Made by a program: the position numbers and the translations under genes. Below, in pieces: positions 2,835 to 8,623 of a DNA stretch of 35,498 bases. Numbering within the stretch: the first letter of the stretch is position 1; each line of letters opens with the position of its first letter. Source of the DNA: Paraeggerthella hongkongensis (GTDB taxonomy: Bacteria; Actinomycetota; Coriobacteriia; Coriobacteriales; Eggerthellaceae); contig NZ_PPTQ01000023.1 in the NCBI RefSeq assembly GCF_003340345.1, forward strand, positions 1-35,498, given 5' to 3'. The notes beneath the pieces were generated by a model, which was given only the letters and a program-made list of their open reading frames with translations, made no database searches and was not told the origin of the DNA.

Positions 2835-3563
2835 CTACGCGTTGCAACTGGATGCGGGGCAGCGGGCCTCGCATCCAGGGCATGCGTCGCCCGTCCTTTT
2901 CAGCTCCTTGGCAAGCAGCGCGGATTCCTTGCAGGCTTGCGTGATCAGCATCGAAAGGCCCCGGTACAGGTTGCTGTTCGATTTTTCCAGGATCAGGTTG
3001 CGCCAACCTTCCACCCAGGAGTTCGGGTGCTCTTCCAGAAAATCATGTTGATCGGACATCGCCCGCTCGAATCCTTCTTCGTTGCCGGCGTCGAGGCTCT
3101 CCTTTGCGATGCGCGCCAGATGCGCCGCAAACAGCAGTTCGGAGGCAAGATGGTCGTCCGGTTCGTGCTGAAAGCCCTCTACCTCCAGGTTGTATGCTCG
3201 GTACGCTGCTCGTACTTGCAGCGTTCGCTCCTGAAACACCATGCGCTCGCGGCTGAAGTGCACCGATTCCCAAAGGGGGGCGGCTACCTTTTGGGCGCCC
3301 ACGAACAGGCGCGTGTAGTCGACGCGGACGGCTTCGAAGTCGCTGTCGGAAAAGGGCGTCGCGCAGGCGTCCATCCAGGCAAGGAGCAGATCCTGCGGCT
3401 GCCTTGCCCGCGCGCCGTCTACGAAGGGTATGGACTCGAACAGGCGCTCTTCGACGACGCGGGCGAAAAGATCGCGATCCGGCATGTCGTACAGCAGTCT
3501 TCCGAGCAGCGTGAGCAGGGCTTCTTCTTCTGCGAGCCTTGATCGGATGGCATCGGTGTCCAT
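2835..3563 (-). CDS. TorD/DmsD-family molybdoenzyme chaperone
   Basis: This 242-aa all-helical protein carries the TorD-family core YTRLFVG (residues 83-89) followed by PLWESVHF. The long helix region with ELLFAAHLARIA and the late FLEEHPNSWVEGW segment are also typical (the family often shows D/H-F-x-x-x-H-x-x-W). Such chaperones bind the Tat signal of a molybdopterin enzyme and hold it until cofactor loading. It is the third gene of the reductase operon, behind the FeS subunit, with AGGAG upstream of the ATG. The last 18 residues contain C228, C231, C235 and C240 in a CX2CX3CX4C pattern, which is not a usual TorD feature and could bind a metal. An 11-bp hairpin separates it from the FeS gene. 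Confidence 0.88.
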   Translation of the reverse strand: MDTDAIRSRLAEEEALLTLLGRLLYDMPDRDLFARVVEERLFESIPFVDGARARQPQDLLLAWMDACATPFSDSDFEAVRVDYTRLFVGAQKVAAPLWESVHFSRERMVFQERTLQVRAAYRAYNLEVEGFQHEPDDHLASELLFAAHLARIAKESLDAGNEEGFERAMSDQHDFLEEHPNSWVEGWRNLILEKSNSNLYRGLSMLITQACKESALLAKELKRTGDACPGCEARCPASSCNA

Positions 3564-3629: not shown

Positions 3630-4250
3630 TTATTGTTCAAGCGAGAGAGGCCGTCCTGCGCCCTCTTCGAACACAGCGTCTTTGTGCGTGGCGATCGCCA
3701 CGTTGGGAAGCGTTTCCGACGAAGGGGGCAGCGGTTGCACGTCGGCAACCTTGCCGTAGGTGCTGCGGAGCTCTTCGATCTCGCCTATTGTCAGGGCGCG
3801 CTGCGGGCAGATTCCCACGCATGCAGGCTCTTCGCCAAGGGCGAGCAGATCTTTGCACAGATCGCACTTGCGCGATTTCTTTTCAGCTTCGACCAGCTGG
3901 CACGCGCCGTACGGGCAGGCTGCATTGCAGGTGCCGCACCCGATGCACTTCTCGGGATCGATGGTGACGATGCCCGTGTCCGCGTCCTTCGAGATGGCCC
4001 CTTGCGGGCATTTGGCGAAGCAGGCGGGGGAGTCGCAGTGCCCGCACGAGAACGATACCGAGTACGAGAACACGCCTTGCGGGGTGAAGCAGTTCAGCGC
4101 CTCGTCTTTCTCCCACGTTCCGCCGCACATCATCCGCACGCGGCGAAGCCGAGCGCCCACGTCGAGGTTGTTCTTGTCCTTGCAAGCGAGTTCGCAGGCC
4201 TTGCAGCCGGTGCACGAAGCGCTGTCGATGTAAAAGCCCATTTGAGACAT
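3630..4250 (-). CDS. 4Fe-4S electron-transfer subunit of molybdopterin oxidoreductase (DmsB-like)
   Basis: This 206-aa protein has four ferredoxin-type cysteine clusters. The first is C13-C16-C19-C23 (CTGCKACELAC); then come CGHCDSPACFAKCP, CIGCGTCNAACP and a final CDLC...CVGICP. This is the DmsB/NrfC/PsrB pattern of four 4Fe-4S clusters forming a wire from the catalytic subunit to a membrane partner. The start overlaps nothing, but its AAGGAGG ribosome site lies inside the last codons of the upstream catalytic gene, two bases separate the genes, and translation is probably coupled. There is no Tat signal of its own, so it is presumably exported in complex with the catalytic subunit. No DmsC-type or NrfD-type anchor follows. 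Confidence 0.92.
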   Translation of the reverse strand: MSQMGFYIDSASCTGCKACELACKDKNNLDVGARLRRVRMMCGGTWEKDEALNCFTPQGVFSYSVSFSCGHCDSPACFAKCPQGAISKDADTGIVTIDPEKCIGCGTCNAACPYGACQLVEAEKKSRKCDLCKDLLALGEEPACVGICPQRALTIGEIEELRSTYGKVADVQPLPPSSETLPNVAIATHKDAVFEEGAGRPLSLEQ

Positions 4251-4252
4251 GA

Positions 4253-6955
4253 TTAGTCCTCCTTAAACACTTCGCGCGGTTCCCAGGTGTAATCGGGGGC
4301 GAGCGGCGTTCCCGTCCATTTCTCGACCTTCACGATGCAGCTGTTCCATGCCTGATGGCCGTATCCTACGCAGTTGGGGCCGTTCAGCACGTTAACGCTG
4401 CCGGCCATGTCGATGCCGGTCTCCTCGTCGATCTCCACCCACGAGCCTTGGCCGAGGCCCAGCACTCCGGGCATCATGATCTCGGTGACCAGCAGCGGGC
4501 GCAGGCTCTTGCCCCACTTCGAGGTGATGAGCACCGTCTGGCCCGTTTCGCACCCGATGTCCGCGGCGTCGAGCGGATTCATGTACAGCGGGTGGTCGAA
4601 CGCCTCGCGCAGATTGGGGACGTCGGCGAACGAGGAATGCGAATGGCGCGGAATGTGCAGGCTGACCAGCTGATAGGGGTATTCGCCCTTCACTTTGCCA
4701 GCCCAATCGGAAAACGTCTCCTCGTATCCTTCGATGCCGGGTTCGTATTTGGCGATGGGCGGGATTTCGGTCCATCCGCATGCCTTTACGCGCGCGGCGG
4801 CGTTCGGCGAGCAGATCTCGAGCTTGCCCGTTTTCGTGGTGGCTATGGGATTCGCTTCGGGATCCTTGCGGAAGGCTTCCAGCACCACGTAATCCAGACC
4901 GTCTCCTTCGGAGCGCTCCACCGTGTAGATGCCGTCGCGCTTGAAGTCGAGGATGGGCACGCGACCTTCTTGGGGCTTGCCTTCCACGCCGAGTTCTTTC
5001 AGGTCGTCTTCCGTGACGCTGACCAGGTTCTCTACGCCGCTTCCATCCTTTTTGGTTGCGGTTGCGGCGGCAACCCAATCGAAGACCTGCTGCTTGAGCT
5101 CGAGCGGGCGCACTTGCTTCGGATCGACGCCGATGTGCTCTGACAGCTCTGCGGCAATGTCCACGTCGCTTTTGGCTTCGAACAAAGGCTCGCATACTTG
5201 GCTCGTCCACAGTACTTGCTCGCGATACGCTGCGGTGAAGTCTCCGTAGCGCTCCCATTGGGTGGTGACGGGCAAGACGATGTCCGCATAGCGGCAAGCC
5301 GTGGTCATCACGATGTTCTGGGCTACGACGCAGTCCATTTTGCGGTAGGCTTCAATGGCCAGCATGGTCCCCGGTGCCTGGTTGATGATGTTCTCGTGCG
5401 TATCGTAGATCATGTGCACGTTGCAGGGGCGCTTCTTGCCCAGGCCGGTGGTGAACTCGCCGGACAGAATGCCCGTCCATGCCTCGTTGATGTTGATGCG
5501 GTAATACGGCTCTTCGGGCAGCTTGTACATGCCGTTGGGCACGCCGTACTCGATGGAGTCTCCGCCGAGGGGGTTCCAGATGGGCGCGATGTTTCCCGAC
5601 GTAGTCCATGAGGGCTCGCCGAGTATGGTGCCGCCCTGCAGCAAGGTCAGGTAGCCGCCCTGCAACCAGGAGTGGCCGGCGTCGGATCCGGTGCAGCAGC
5701 CCGGCTTGCCGATGCAGCCGGCCATGGCTCCAAGCGTCATGATGGCCTGGGGCCACGTGGTCCCGTTGGTGGTGCGCGACGGCGCGGGAGACATGATGAT
5801 GGACACGCGCTCGGTCTGCGCGATCTGCAAAGCAAGATCGGTGATCACGGCGGGGCTTACGCCGCAGATCTCCGCTGCCCATTCCGGCGTTTTCGGCGTA
5901 TTGTCGTAGGTGCCCAGCACATAGTCTTTGAAGTTGTCCTCGGGCGCCGCTCCTTCGGGCATGTGGTCCGCGTCGAATCCGACGGTGCAGCGGTTCAGGA
6001 AATCCCAATCGATGAGCGGCTTTGCAGCGGGGTCGTCGTGGGTCAGCAGCACGTAGGCCATGGCGATGGCAAGCGCCGTGTCGGTGCCCGGTCGCACGCC
6101 GACGAACTGGTCGGCAACGGCTTGGGCGGTGGCGTGGCGGAAGATGTCTATGCAGATGAACTTCGTTCCCGCAGCTTTGCATTGCATGTAGTCGTAGGTG
6201 GGAAGACCGGTGCGGCTCCAGGCGGGGTTCGATCCCCACAGTACGATGATCTGGGCTTTTCGCAAGTCCATGCGATCGTTCGTGTCTTCGGCCAGGCCGT
6301 ATATCTTGGCCATCGACCCCCACGCGCCCGAAGAGCAGGCGCCCCAGTGCTCCAGGTACCCTCCGTGCAGCGCCAGCATGCGCCCGATATCCCAGTTCCC
6401 GAACAGCGAGGCCACGTAGCCCGGCACGAATATCGCATCGTGTCCGTACGCGGAAGTGATGCGCTTGATCTCGCCGGCGATCAGCTGATACGCTTCGTCC
6501 CAGCTGATGCGCTCCCAGTCGTCCTTGCCGCGCAGCGCCCCGTTGGCGTTGTCGCCGCCACCGGGCTGCCAGCTTTTGCGCTTCATGGGGTACTTGATGC
6601 GATCGGCGCCGAATACCATGCCGCGCAAAGCCCGTCCGCGGGCGCACGACCTGAGCTGCGGGCAGTCGGGGGAGTCCGCGTGGGTTTTGTCCGTTCCCAT
6701 GCGGACGCAGTCGCCGTCCTGCACGAACACCTTGTTGAAGCCTTTGCTGCCGCAGTCCGCCCAGCAGTTGCAGGGGATCCAGGTTCCTTCCGATGCCCCC
6801 TTCGCCGCTTCTCCTTCCGGCTTTTGGTTGAATCCTGCGCAGCCGGTCGTGCCGAGCGCGGCGGTTCCCGCTACGGCGACGCCCGTCCATTTGAGCAGGT
6901 TTCGACGGGTGATGCTCGATCTTGCTTCCGCCGTTTCGTGCGTCGATGCTCCCAT
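4253..6955 (-). CDS. Tat-exported molybdopterin oxidoreductase catalytic subunit (DMSO reductase family)
   Basis: This 900-aa protein starts at 6955, where AGGAGG lies four bases upstream. The extended frame to 7162 lacks a site. Residues 15-22 (SITRRNLL) form a twin-arginine signal followed by a hydrophobic stretch and TTGC (C39), a weak lipobox. A Cys-rich N-terminus with C62, C64, C68 and C103 (the last in RSCARGR) should bind one 4Fe-4S cluster. Later blocks are typical of bis-MGD enzymes: IVLWGSNPAWSRTGLPTYDY, the DTALAIAMAYVLL region, ADIVLPVTTQWERYG and the C-terminal molydopterin-dinucleotide domain with YMNPLDAADIGCETGQTV. The segment HWGACSSGAWG probably carries the Mo ligand. The substrate cannot be read from sequence; DMSO-, TMAO- or aromatic-substrate reductases are possible. 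It is first in an operon with the FeS subunit and TorD. Confidence 0.92.
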   Translation of the reverse strand: MGASTHETAEARSSITRRNLLKWTGVAVAGTAALGTTGCAGFNQKPEGEAAKGASEGTWIPCNCWADCGSKGFNKVFVQDGDCVRMGTDKTHADSPDCPQLRSCARGRALRGMVFGADRIKYPMKRKSWQPGGGDNANGALRGKDDWERISWDEAYQLIAGEIKRITSAYGHDAIFVPGYVASLFGNWDIGRMLALHGGYLEHWGACSSGAWGSMAKIYGLAEDTNDRMDLRKAQIIVLWGSNPAWSRTGLPTYDYMQCKAAGTKFICIDIFRHATAQAVADQFVGVRPGTDTALAIAMAYVLLTHDDPAAKPLIDWDFLNRCTVGFDADHMPEGAAPEDNFKDYVLGTYDNTPKTPEWAAEICGVSPAVITDLALQIAQTERVSIIMSPAPSRTTNGTTWPQAIMTLGAMAGCIGKPGCCTGSDAGHSWLQGGYLTLLQGGTILGEPSWTTSGNIAPIWNPLGGDSIEYGVPNGMYKLPEEPYYRININEAWTGILSGEFTTGLGKKRPCNVHMIYDTHENIINQAPGTMLAIEAYRKMDCVVAQNIVMTTACRYADIVLPVTTQWERYGDFTAAYREQVLWTSQVCEPLFEAKSDVDIAAELSEHIGVDPKQVRPLELKQQVFDWVAAATATKKDGSGVENLVSVTEDDLKELGVEGKPQEGRVPILDFKRDGIYTVERSEGDGLDYVVLEAFRKDPEANPIATTKTGKLEICSPNAAARVKACGWTEIPPIAKYEPGIEGYEETFSDWAGKVKGEYPYQLVSLHIPRHSHSSFADVPNLREAFDHPLYMNPLDAADIGCETGQTVLITSKWGKSLRPLLVTEIMMPGVLGLGQGSWVEIDEETGIDMAGSVNVLNGPNCVGYGHQAWNSCIVKVEKWTGTPLAPDYTWEPREVFKED

Positions 6956-7101
6956 GTTCCCTCCTATCGTCGTGCGGCCGCCCCCTTGCTGCGGCCGCTC
7001 CAACCCCTTGCAGGGTTCGCGAAGATCATAGGGACGACGGTGCTGCGGTGCCAATGGCCGAAGGCTCTGTATTGCAGAACGGGTCGGAATGGAAGCATGC
7101 G

Positions 7102-7115
7102 AGCCGAATTCGGCT
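7102..7115. promoter_or_regulatory. Perfect 14-bp palindrome (operator candidate)
   Basis: AGCCGAATTCGGCT reads identically on both strands and sits in the divergent gap. No T-run follows, so it is more likely a protein-binding site than a terminator. The binding protein is unknown; the divergent winged-helix protein is the nearest candidate. Confidence 0.5.
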
Positions 7116-7124
7116 TGTTTTGCG

Positions 7125-7144
7125 GTTTCGATTATTCTCGAAAC
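7125..7144. promoter_or_regulatory. 20-bp dyad (operator candidate)
   Basis: GTTTCGA (7125-7131) and TCGAAAC (7138-7144) are perfect 7-bp arms around an AT-rich 6-base centre. A minus-strand AATAAT -10-like hexamer lies in the centre, so binding here could directly control the reductase operon. Confidence 0.5.
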
Positions 7145-7214
7145 GGATGGTCGTATTAGCAAATCAACGAAATCGGAAATAAGGAGCCCGCTTGCGGGGC
7201 ATCGCTCGCGTCGA

Positions 7215-7223
7215 TGCTAGAAT
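7215..7223 (+). promoter_or_regulatory. Extended -10 promoter of the pseudo-Fic gene
   Basis: TGCTAGAAT is an extended -10 (TGn plus TAGAAT at 7218-7223). Transcription would begin near 7230, which excludes an ATG at 7214 as the start and supports the ATG at 7271. Confidence 0.5.
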
Positions 7224-7270
7224 GGAGCGCGAGGGGAGGGAGTTTCGGCTCTTGGAGCCGGAGTGCCGCC

Positions 7271-8623
7271 ATGCAGTATTTCGACAGACAGATCGGGCAG
7301 GACGACCTTGCGCGGCTCATCGCCGACCTCGCTTCCGTGCGTGCGGAAAAGGACAAGGTCAACCGAAAGAAGCGCTCGGGGGCGCCCTACGAGCCCAAGT
7401 TGCTGTGCCCGCGCAACTTCGTTTTGAGCAGCGAGACGGCTGCGGTTGTCGCTCGCGCGGAGATCGCGGTGGCGAAGTCCGACTGTCTGGTCGAGGGGTC
7501 GGCCTATCCGCTGCGGCGCTTGCTGTCGCGCGTGGAGGGCGTGGCTTCGGTGCGCACTAACGGCGTGAAGCCGAGCTACCGGGCGTGCTGCTATCTGGAC
7601 CTTGGCTCCTGGACGCATGCGCCGGCGGGTTCTGCCCGGCTTGTCAAGAACGCCGCGCGCATGCATGCGGGCTGCACGTCGGCTCAACTTGATGCTTCGT
7701 ACGCCGCTCATTTGGTGGAGGGCGCAGTGAACTTCATACTTTCCGACGTTTCTCAAGACGGCGATATAACGGCCGCGCATCTGGAGGCTTTGTACCGCGG
7801 CATCAGCGAAGGGTCGTATTGGGAGAAGGAAGCCGGCCTTCGTTCATGGGATTATAATCATCGGCGCAGCCCCGACGTGGATCTTGACATGTATCGGCCT
7901 CCGACCGCGGCGCAGCTTCCTCGGTTCATGAAGGACCTCGTGCAGTTTTGCAACCGCAATTCGTATTCGCCTATAGCGCGCTCGGCCATCGCCCATTACC
8001 AGCTTGAGGCGACCAAGGCGTTCATGGCGGGATCCGACCAGATCGGTCGTATTCTGGCTATCCTGATCTGGCGCAAGGCGGGGCTTATCGAGCATTACAT
8101 GCCCCCGTTCTCCATCACGCCGGCCATGACCACCATGCGCCATACAAGAAGGCTCGAACCGTATTTGACCGAGCATGATTTCGTGGATGCGGGCGAACTG
8201 CTTGCCGTGGACGAATGGGTGTACCACTGCGCGCGAGCCTGCGAGCTTTCTGTGCGCATCGCGAAGGTGTGCTGTCGAGAGGCGTCCGCTTTGACCGACT
8301 CGTGGACTGCGCAGGTCAAGGGAAGCGGGATAGAGTTGCGCAAGTGCGTGCGGAAGCTGATGAACGAGCTGATAGGAAGCCCGGTCGTCAGCATCCCCTT
8401 TGCAGCCGAGTTGATCGGAAGCAGCTTTTCCACCGCCGCGCGCGCTGTTTCCGATTTGGTGGAGGCGGGCGTTTTGCGCCAGATGGGAGGCGGCGGGCGC
8501 AACCGCGTGTTCGAGGCAGCCGAGGCGATCGCGCTGTTCACGCGGATAGAAGGCGCCTTTTTGCCCGAAACGCCGCTGTCGCGCGAATTCTTGATCGAGC
8601 AAAGCAAGGGAACGATCGCGTAG
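7271..8623 (+). CDS. Fic-fold protein with degenerate catalytic motif and C-terminal winged helix
   Basis: This 450-aa protein shows the order of HTH-type Fic proteins. There is an N-terminal region with a remnant of the inhibitory helix (LVEG, E75), a Fic core beginning YRPPTAAQLPRFMKDL, the helix ARSAIAHYQLE, and a C-terminal winged helix (about 370-440: IPFAAELIGSSFSTAARAVSDLVEAGVL). The active loop that should read HPFxDGNGRxGR instead reads KAFMAGSDQIGR (residues 249-260). The catalytic His, the acidic residue, Asn, Gly and first Arg are all replaced and only the distal GR remains. AMP transfer is therefore unlikely. With the DNA-binding domain intact, a regulatory role is plausible. The start is set by GGAG seven bases upstream and by the promoter at 7215-7223. 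It is divergent from the reductase operon. Confidence 0.8.
   Translation: MQYFDRQIGQDDLARLIADLASVRAEKDKVNRKKRSGAPYEPKLLCPRNFVLSSETAAVVARAEIAVAKSDCLVEGSAYPLRRLLSRVEGVASVRTNGVKPSYRACCYLDLGSWTHAPAGSARLVKNAARMHAGCTSAQLDASYAAHLVEGAVNFILSDVSQDGDITAAHLEALYRGISEGSYWEKEAGLRSWDYNHRRSPDVDLDMYRPPTAAQLPRFMKDLVQFCNRNSYSPIARSAIAHYQLEATKAFMAGSDQIGRILAILIWRKAGLIEHYMPPFSITPAMTTMRHTRRLEPYLTEHDFVDAGELLAVDEWVYHCARACELSVRIAKVCCREASALTDSWTAQVKGSGIELRKCVRKLMNELIGSPVVSIPFAAELIGSSFSTAARAVSDLVEAGVLRQMGGGGRNRVFEAAEAIALFTRIEGAFLPETPLSREFLIEQSKGTIA

Follow-up and report, generated by a model that had tools for sequence, protein, structure and literature searches.

Organization of the locus

The DNA analyzed here, referred to as the window, is a stretch of 35,498 nucleotides. 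A gene for a Fic-like protein (pseudo-fic) lies divergently to a molybdoenzyme operon, as had been described in the first-pass annotation, and the enzyme gene (4253-6955, minus strand) is 315 bp away. The features of the locus are as follows.

2835..3563, minus strand: maturation chaperone of the nitrate reductase delta / TorD kind (PF02613; Pfam)
3630..4250, minus strand: 4Fe-4S ferredoxin-type subunit (Pfam)
4253-6955, minus strand: DMSO-reductase-family molybdopterin oxidoreductase with Molybdopterin and Molydop_binding domains (Pfam)
6956..7270, no strand: divergent intergenic region of 315 bp from the molybdoenzyme gene to pseudo-fic (gene calls)
7025..7054, minus strand: predicted sigma-70-like promoter of the molybdoenzyme operon, TTGGCA-18-TATGAT (consensus match only)
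7111..7202, no strand: 92-bp stretch with no difference between two species (the 316-column alignment contains 16 differences in all)
7125..7144, no strand: candidate operator, the dyad GTTTCGA-N6-TCGAAAC, with the same sequence in P. hongkongensis
7215..7223, plus strand: extended -10 element TGCTAGAAT, presumed pseudo-fic promoter (motif TGNTA[AG]AAT)
7271..8623, plus strand: pseudo-Fic gene of 450 aa with a Fic fold, a dismantled catalytic loop and a C-terminal winged helix
7544..7564, plus strand: ASVRTNG, codons 92-98, aligned to the class II inhibitory motif (S/T)xxxE(G/N)
8015..8050, plus strand: altered loop KAFMAGSDQIGR replacing HPFxDGNGRxGR, codons 249-260 (translation of the open reading frame; alignment to 7cb8, 4rgl and 9vjc)
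8342..8515, plus strand: winged helix-turn-helix, residues 358-415 (model; profile alignment to SoFic)

The nearest solved relatives of the window enzyme in a PDB search are TMAO and DMSO reductases. It carries an RR motif, and its match to the twin-arginine signal (18.9 bits) lies below the Pfam cut-off of 22.7. Near the operon are a DUF4213/DUF364 putative metal-chelation gene (400-1260) and a gene whose NTPase_1 match falls slightly short of the cut-off (1381-2013). The window genome (2.86 Mb) contains 24 molybdoenzyme genes, and two of the 24 matches have one in-frame TGA (G000:C6:19560-20837 and G000:C1:101403-103103), as in selenocysteine-containing formate dehydrogenases. An in-frame ATG at 7214, upstream of 7271, was rejected as the start of pseudo-fic. 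It overlaps the extended -10 element at 7215-7223, which makes 7271 preferable.

A Fic fold with a dismantled catalytic loop

Residues 168-266 of the window protein match the Fic family (PF02661) at 29.1 bits against a Pfam cut-off of 24, and all 18 members of the homologue alignment A1 match this family at E ≤0.01. The catalytic loop HPFxDGNGRxGR had been reported as lost at residues 249-260, and this is confirmed: these residues read KAFMAGSDQIGR in an open 450-aa frame and align with the catalytic loop of 7cb8, 4rgl and 9vjc. His is replaced by Lys, Pro by Ala, Asp by Ala, Asn by Ser, the second Gly by Asp and the first Arg by Gln, and Phe, the first Gly, the last Gly and the last Arg are retained. 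The loop does not fit the AMPylase motif HxFx(D/E)GNGRxxR. Nor does the protein have a class II inhibitory helix, the motif of which is defined as (S/T)xxxE(G/N) in an excerpt of PMC9755527, since the Glu column is occupied by Asn97.

The AlphaFold2 model of the window protein (pTM 0.72, mean pLDDT 70.1) was built on 28 alignment rows, 26 of which are distant viral ones. It predicts a Fic plus winged-helix fold that overlays 7cb8 (Foldseek E 1.2e-13, TM 0.61) and SoFic (E 4.5e-9). The Fic core had been called well preserved; the fold is preserved, but sequence likeness to 7cb8 is modest (19% identity). Residues 358-415 are modelled as H-E-H-H-E-E, with ten-residue mean pLDDT values of 76-96 across residues 361-430, and the profile alignment to SoFic and 7cb8 spans their C-terminal parts, 3eqx being covered to residue 368 of 373. 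The annotated retention of the C-terminal winged helix is therefore upheld, and no HTH above the Pfam cut-off was found in the window protein. Canonical Fic relatives have a winged helix too, so its retention alone is no proof of regulation. By eye, noncanonical members of A1 have in common a PxxPxSR[DE] C-terminal tail after the winged helix (8564-8587 in the window).

A single clade of altered loops

Homologues at E ≤1e-3 are present in 75 of 138 family genomes, and profile matches at E ≤1e-30 in 110 of 395 genomes of the order-level group, canonical Fic proteins being included in both counts. P. hongkongensis is placed by the NCBI taxonomy in Eggerthellaceae, Eggerthellales, class Coriobacteriia. 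One hundred Fic loci were examined, namely the order-level-group profile matches down to E 1.6e-36 minus the copy in G001, a second Paraeggerthella genome. Loci were picked by profile-search rank, independently of their neighbours. A loop was called canonical when it fitted the pattern H.F.[DE][GA]N[GK]R. The main set of noncanonical loci consists of the window, L062-L099, L101 and L208 (n=41). L237 misses the canonical pattern by one letter and has a 230-aa frame, L232 and L233 (HPFERANGKTAR) are Doc-like, and L108 and L111 are duplicates of L116 and L128.

The noncanonical proteins group together even when the loop columns are removed. A quick tree sets 38 of 38 noncanonical rows apart by a fully supported branch, and a careful tree unites 39 of 39 with support of 100/100, recovered in 100% of the 200 bootstrap trees; L089 and L097 are absent from both trees because the gene caller truncated or skipped them. 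In an 84-row quick tree extended by L089, L097 and six weaker members, a branch again separates all 47 noncanonical rows from the others, but the one uniting 46 of them (without L232) has a support of 59, read after rerooting. Adding the most divergent members lowers clade support; L078, L099 and L101 have very long branches and L239 an extremely long one.

The loop of this clade has a consensus of its own, [KRV]PFxx[GM][ILM]DRTG[RL]. Among 38 clade rows, the His site is Lys in 19, Val in nine, Arg in six and another residue in four, Ile, Leu or Met has taken the Asn position in 30, and the second Gly has become Asp in 35. Pro (35), Phe (34), the last Gly (35) and the last Arg (26) are mostly kept. 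Over the main set, His is absent from 40 of 41 loops and Asn from all 41, the acidic residue is present in five of 41, and Asp occupies the Gly site (D256 in the window) in 36 of 41. The class II inhibitory Glu is found in 5 of 38 clade rows, with Asp in 25, whereas 24 of 24 canonical rows keep Glu. R191 is conserved in 36 of 38 clade rows and is the likely counterpart of R50 of H. pylori Fic, which is described in a passage of PMC2686095 as holding the catalytic loop and the target-binding hairpin. In the wing, R410 is kept in 34 of 38 rows and R412 in 36.

Further loop types were also observed. L089 (8787-10004) has a half-way loop, HPFEDSLDGTER, in which His and Asp are kept and GNGR is lost; it adjoins a molybdoenzyme gene. 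L238 (SPFSMLNAALGN) and L243 (SPFSTMNAPVGT), both linked to such genes, have Asn in the Asn column with no Asp after it, and in the tree they are nearest to each other and to L098 and L083.

No altered loop was found elsewhere in the class, where 16 of 16 loci (17 Fic ORFs) are canonical and without a molybdoenzyme on the examined DNA, several contigs being short. Outside the order-level group, the three hits of the phylum search at E ≤1e-70 are all canonical, as are 30 of 30 aligned viral Fic proteins. Because searches beyond the order-level group took at most four candidates per genome from genomes drawn evenly from larger groups, absence there is unproven.

Purifying selection on pseudo-fic

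The window gene and the P. hongkongensis copy (G001, NZ_QICD01000005.1) encode proteins with 99.8% identity. The two genes show 56 nucleotide differences, of which one is nonsynonymous (N196H) and none falls in the loop codons, giving dN 0.0020, dS 0.186 and dN/dS ~0.01. On this comparison of coding sequences, pseudo-fic is under strong purifying selection between the two species. This purifying selection and the single altered-loop clade with its own loop consensus rule out random decay, and the homologues agree with the first reading that the loop is conserved rather than degraded in one strain.

Linkage to molybdoenzyme genes

Linkage was defined as a DMSO-reductase-family molybdoenzyme gene within three genes. 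Neighbour genes were called with a hexamer gene caller and a purpose-built MopB profile, and the calls were checked with Pfam for the window and ten neighbour proteins, while three other enzymes were checked by a PDB search. L107, L109 and L110 (flanks of ~1.5 kb) and L031 (the G001 locus) were excluded from the counts, and contig ends may conceal linkage in both groups. In the first round, 37 of 39 noncanonical loci were linked, against 1 of 21 canonical loci (L120), with two other canonical loci 7 and 9 genes from an enzyme gene. With L097 (unlinked) and L208 (enzyme gene adjoining), linkage in the main set is 38/41. L088, L097 and L098 are the three without linkage; they belong to other families within the order-level group, and their contigs measure 26.8, 16.6 and 7.9 kb.

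A census of 38 further matches to E 1.6e-36 yielded eight noncanonical and 30 canonical loci. The His-less loops among them (L225, L231, L238, L243) are linked in 4 of 4 cases, the altered loops that keep His (L232, L233, L237, L239) in 0 of 4, and the canonical loci in 1 of 30 (L240, on a 4-kb contig). In total, 41 of 44 His-less loci are linked, 42 of 49 with any noncanonical loop and 2 of 51 canonical ones; Fisher's test gives p = 8e-21 for the first comparison with canonical loci and 3e-18 for the second. Altered loops keeping His are linked in 1 of 5 cases (L089). Counted by genus, 25/27 are linked against 1/17 for canonical loci (p 5.8e-9; p 1.4e-6 with same-family controls only), these counts resting on analyst-assigned group codes and excluding the census. 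The guess of linkage made from one locus thus extends widely, but "always beside reductase operons" is too strong, and "nearly always" fits the His-less loops. L120, which is divergent at a distance of 311 bp, and L240 are the only linked canonical Fic genes among the 51; their linkage may be chance or the ancestral state.

Among the 37 linked loci of the first round, pseudo-fic is divergent from the enzyme gene in 23, codirectional with the Fic gene upstream in eight, and convergent in six. The Fic and enzyme trees agree over 36 pairs without L089 (Mantel r 0.66, 0/2000 permutations) and over 22 dereplicated rows (r 0.62, 0/2000), an agreement to which common descent contributes along with any partner fit there may be. 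The Fic protein evolves faster than its partner: the window and L075 share 45% identity in Fic and 79% in the molybdoenzyme. As far as can be read from sequence, most clade members have kept their place next to molybdoenzyme genes as the two families diverged.

At least three deep classes can be distinguished among the linked enzymes. A second class (L066) has an Fe-S subunit and a PF02613 chaperone and is nearest to acetylene hydratase and type II enzymes. In a third class (L062, L082), an MFS transporter and a glyoxalase-like gene lie alongside and no twin-arginine signal was seen; in the PDB search these enzymes are nearest to TMAO and DMSO reductases, followed at a lower rank by pyrogallol hydroxytransferase. 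Judged from the description in an excerpt of PMC12771579, the third class resembles catechol dehydroxylases in its neighbours and in having no signal. The enzymes of L083 and L099 are of further types.

Other genes recur at these loci. A glyoxalase-family gene of ~153 aa (Pfam for L062 and L082) is found near signal-less enzymes (L062, L082, L087 and similar), sometimes between pseudo-fic and the enzyme gene. Convergent with pseudo-fic on its opposite side, ten loci of one subclade (L082, L084, L085, L086, L090, L091, L092, L093, L095, L096) encode a conserved 77-aa protein (61 aa as called in L092) that starts like MNREEFMALESPKKAE, and the L082 copy has no Pfam match. L062, L064 and L065 have a convergent conserved protein of 99 aa (MDISENMKRCITSKGF), of which the L062 copy has no Pfam match.

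Intergenic DNA

The DNA at 7102-7144 had been proposed as a binding site. Its dyad at 7125-7144 is conserved in the sister species, but the palindrome at 7102-7115 is broken in P. hongkongensis and was discarded as an operator. The 92-bp identical run has P ~0.06, weak on its own, and was not accepted as proof of a control region. GTTTCGA is the sole 7-mer common to the intergenic regions of the window, L075 and L078 (one seen, 1.0 expected) and does not occur in that of L070; a search for a clade-wide operator by shared k-mers gave nothing above chance. The motif TGNTA[AG]AAT points toward the Fic gene in 10 of 17 divergent regions against 0.15 expected, a count whose rows include close relatives and both the window and the P. 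hongkongensis copy. The dyad at 7125-7144 lies between the two predicted promoters and well upstream of both, a position that would fit an activator slightly better than a repressor.

Relation to known systems

The window protein has the same predicted fold and domain order as SoFic (3eqx/3zec), Mycobacterium marinum 7cb8 and CbFic2, and 7cb8 and SoFic are its best structural and profile matches. Unlike SoFic-type proteins, it has neither the catalytic loop nor the inhibitory Glu, and its clade is linked to molybdoenzymes; it falls outside the SoFic equivalog NF046030 (35.4 bits against an NCBIfam cut-off of 550). CbFic2 is described as binding DNA through its HTH, with its sequence specificity left open in the text concerned (PMC10628234). 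The closest tested precedent for the proposed mechanism, by analogy, is CccR of Yersinia pseudotuberculosis, also a Fic plus HTH protein. As presented in the excerpt of PMC9755527, CccR dimerizes, its HTH binds a palindrome and it controls transcription; palindrome binding and self-repression require both HTH and dimerization but not toxicity. However, the same excerpt describes CccR as keeping H192PFGNGNGRTVR203, AMPylating FtsZ and being secreted, and the control described is that of its own promoter.

Two other comparisons concern the Fic fold. AvrB and BepC are described in parts of PMC2686095 and PMC7842960 as Fic folds acting without canonical AMPylation, as is proposed here, but they are injected effectors working by protein binding, with no tie to a metabolic operon in those parts. 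DUF1612 / RHE_PE00001, with a remote Fic-like N-terminus and a winged-helix C-terminus according to a passage of PMC2686095, has the layout of the window protein; the RHE_PE00001 model gives a weak C-terminal match of 11.8 bits against a cut-off of 250, which places the protein outside that family, and DUF1612 is not among its Pfam matches up to E 1.

The regulators described beside such enzymes are of the LuxR type. In Eggerthella lenta, transmembrane LuxR proteins act as activators of catechol dehydroxylase genes, and DadR, HcdR and CadR (10-12-transmembrane LuxR proteins) are likewise locus-specific beside Coriobacteriia molybdoenzyme genes, as reported in the sections seen of PMC9734109. 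They are unrelated to the window protein; the proposed role is alike and the family different. A LuxR HTH lies within 4 kb of 8 of the 24 molybdoenzyme genes in the window genome, and the GerE HTH (PF00196) has no match in the window protein or on the window contig. The first-pass remark that this gene differs from the LuxR-type regulators expected here is supported. As a whole word, Fic is absent from the main texts of PMC9734109, PMC12771579, PMC11585353 and PMC7028382, and searches of open-licence papers showed no description of a Fic family with molybdoenzymes, dehydroxylases or noncanonical motifs; such a description may be in print elsewhere.

Proposed function and alternatives

The likely explanation is that pseudo-fic encodes a one-component, locus-specific, non-AMPylating regulator of the divergent molybdoenzyme operon, derived from a Fic protein. 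Because the altered-loop group nearly always adjoins molybdenum-enzyme genes, this dead-Fic protein of a gut bacterium probably represents a new type of local switch for the genes of such enzymes. The loss of the catalytic His, Asn, acidic residue and inhibitory Glu, with the predicted fold and winged helix remaining, supports this, as do the strong purifying selection and the linkage across the clade. The first-pass interpretation, a regulator of this operon without enzymatic role, is likewise favoured by these sequence-based results.

Beyond the linkage and the predicted fold, we infer the following mechanism. The Fic body would serve as a dimer scaffold and as a domain that senses a partner or ligand. 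The winged helices of the dimer would recognize an inter-promoter dyad, for example that at 7125-7144, and a partner or ligand in the altered pocket would shift DNA binding. Such binding would control the neighbouring operon and perhaps also pseudo-fic itself. The loop alignment suggests that the former ATP site was remodelled and not just destroyed. The changes of Asn to Ile, Leu or Met and of Gly to Asp should plug the anion site and so favour a ligand other than a nucleotide phosphate; the hydrophobic residue would plug the phosphate site and the new Asp would cap the following helix. A tentative extension is that the Fic ATP site has been turned into a sensor pocket for molybdenum-enzyme substrates, the proteins being metabolite-responsive transcription factors each tuned to the neighbouring reductase or dehydroxylase. 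If so, the sequence of a regulator would predict the substrate of its enzyme.

The linkage and tree agreement would suit a physical partner as well as a regulator. The protein might thus be a non-catalytic maturation or quality-control partner of the molybdoenzyme itself, with the winged helix as a leftover, and the Fic domain of BepC, a non-catalytic protein-binding module according to an excerpt of PMC7842960, is an example of such a use. However, a chaperone of the PF02613 kind is already present in the operons of the window, L066 and L075, and the partner enzymes belong to the several deep classes described above. Because pseudo-fic is divergent or convergent in 29 of 37 linked loci, it is not on the transcript of the enzyme gene there. 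In addition, the wing residues R410 and R412 are conserved (34 and 36 of 38). A role as a partner is therefore unlikely.

The loop consensus could instead mark a new active site, the protein being an enzyme with new chemistry that controls the operon by modifying a target. The loop is non-random, with a near-invariant new Asp and often two Lys, and an excerpt of PMC5651007 describes a degenerate Fic2 of Campylobacter fetus, with part of its motif missing, that still disrupts ribosomes when expressed. Against this, the main set has lost His almost throughout (40/41) and Asn entirely (41/41), a hydrophobic residue has replaced Asn in 30 of 38 rows, no single residue has taken the place of His, and the inhibitory Glu kept by every canonical row (24/24) survives in just 5 of 38. 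New chemistry is accordingly quite improbable.

An antitoxin-like partner that titrates active Fic proteins in the same cell would find targets in the window genome, where two other Fic proteins whose loops were examined are canonical (L188, L189), and Fic cross-binding is known in C. fetus, as stated in part of PMC5651007. Because the linkage is to molybdoenzymes and the three other Fic-family matches of the genome are on other contigs, titration is very unlikely. A decaying paralogue, whose loop change would be loss of function without a new role, might account for the rapid evolution seen against L075 (45% identity in Fic, 79% in the enzyme), but it is scarcely credible for one clade of 27 genera in the main set with conserved linkage and dN/dS of 0.01.

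Significance

If the local-switch explanation is true, a second, unrelated regulator family is tied to these enzyme classes, which would offer a handle on molybdoenzyme switching and possibly on the substrates reduced. For the Fic field, it would provide a natural family over 27 genera in which AMPylation has been abandoned and the fold reused, probably for gene control.
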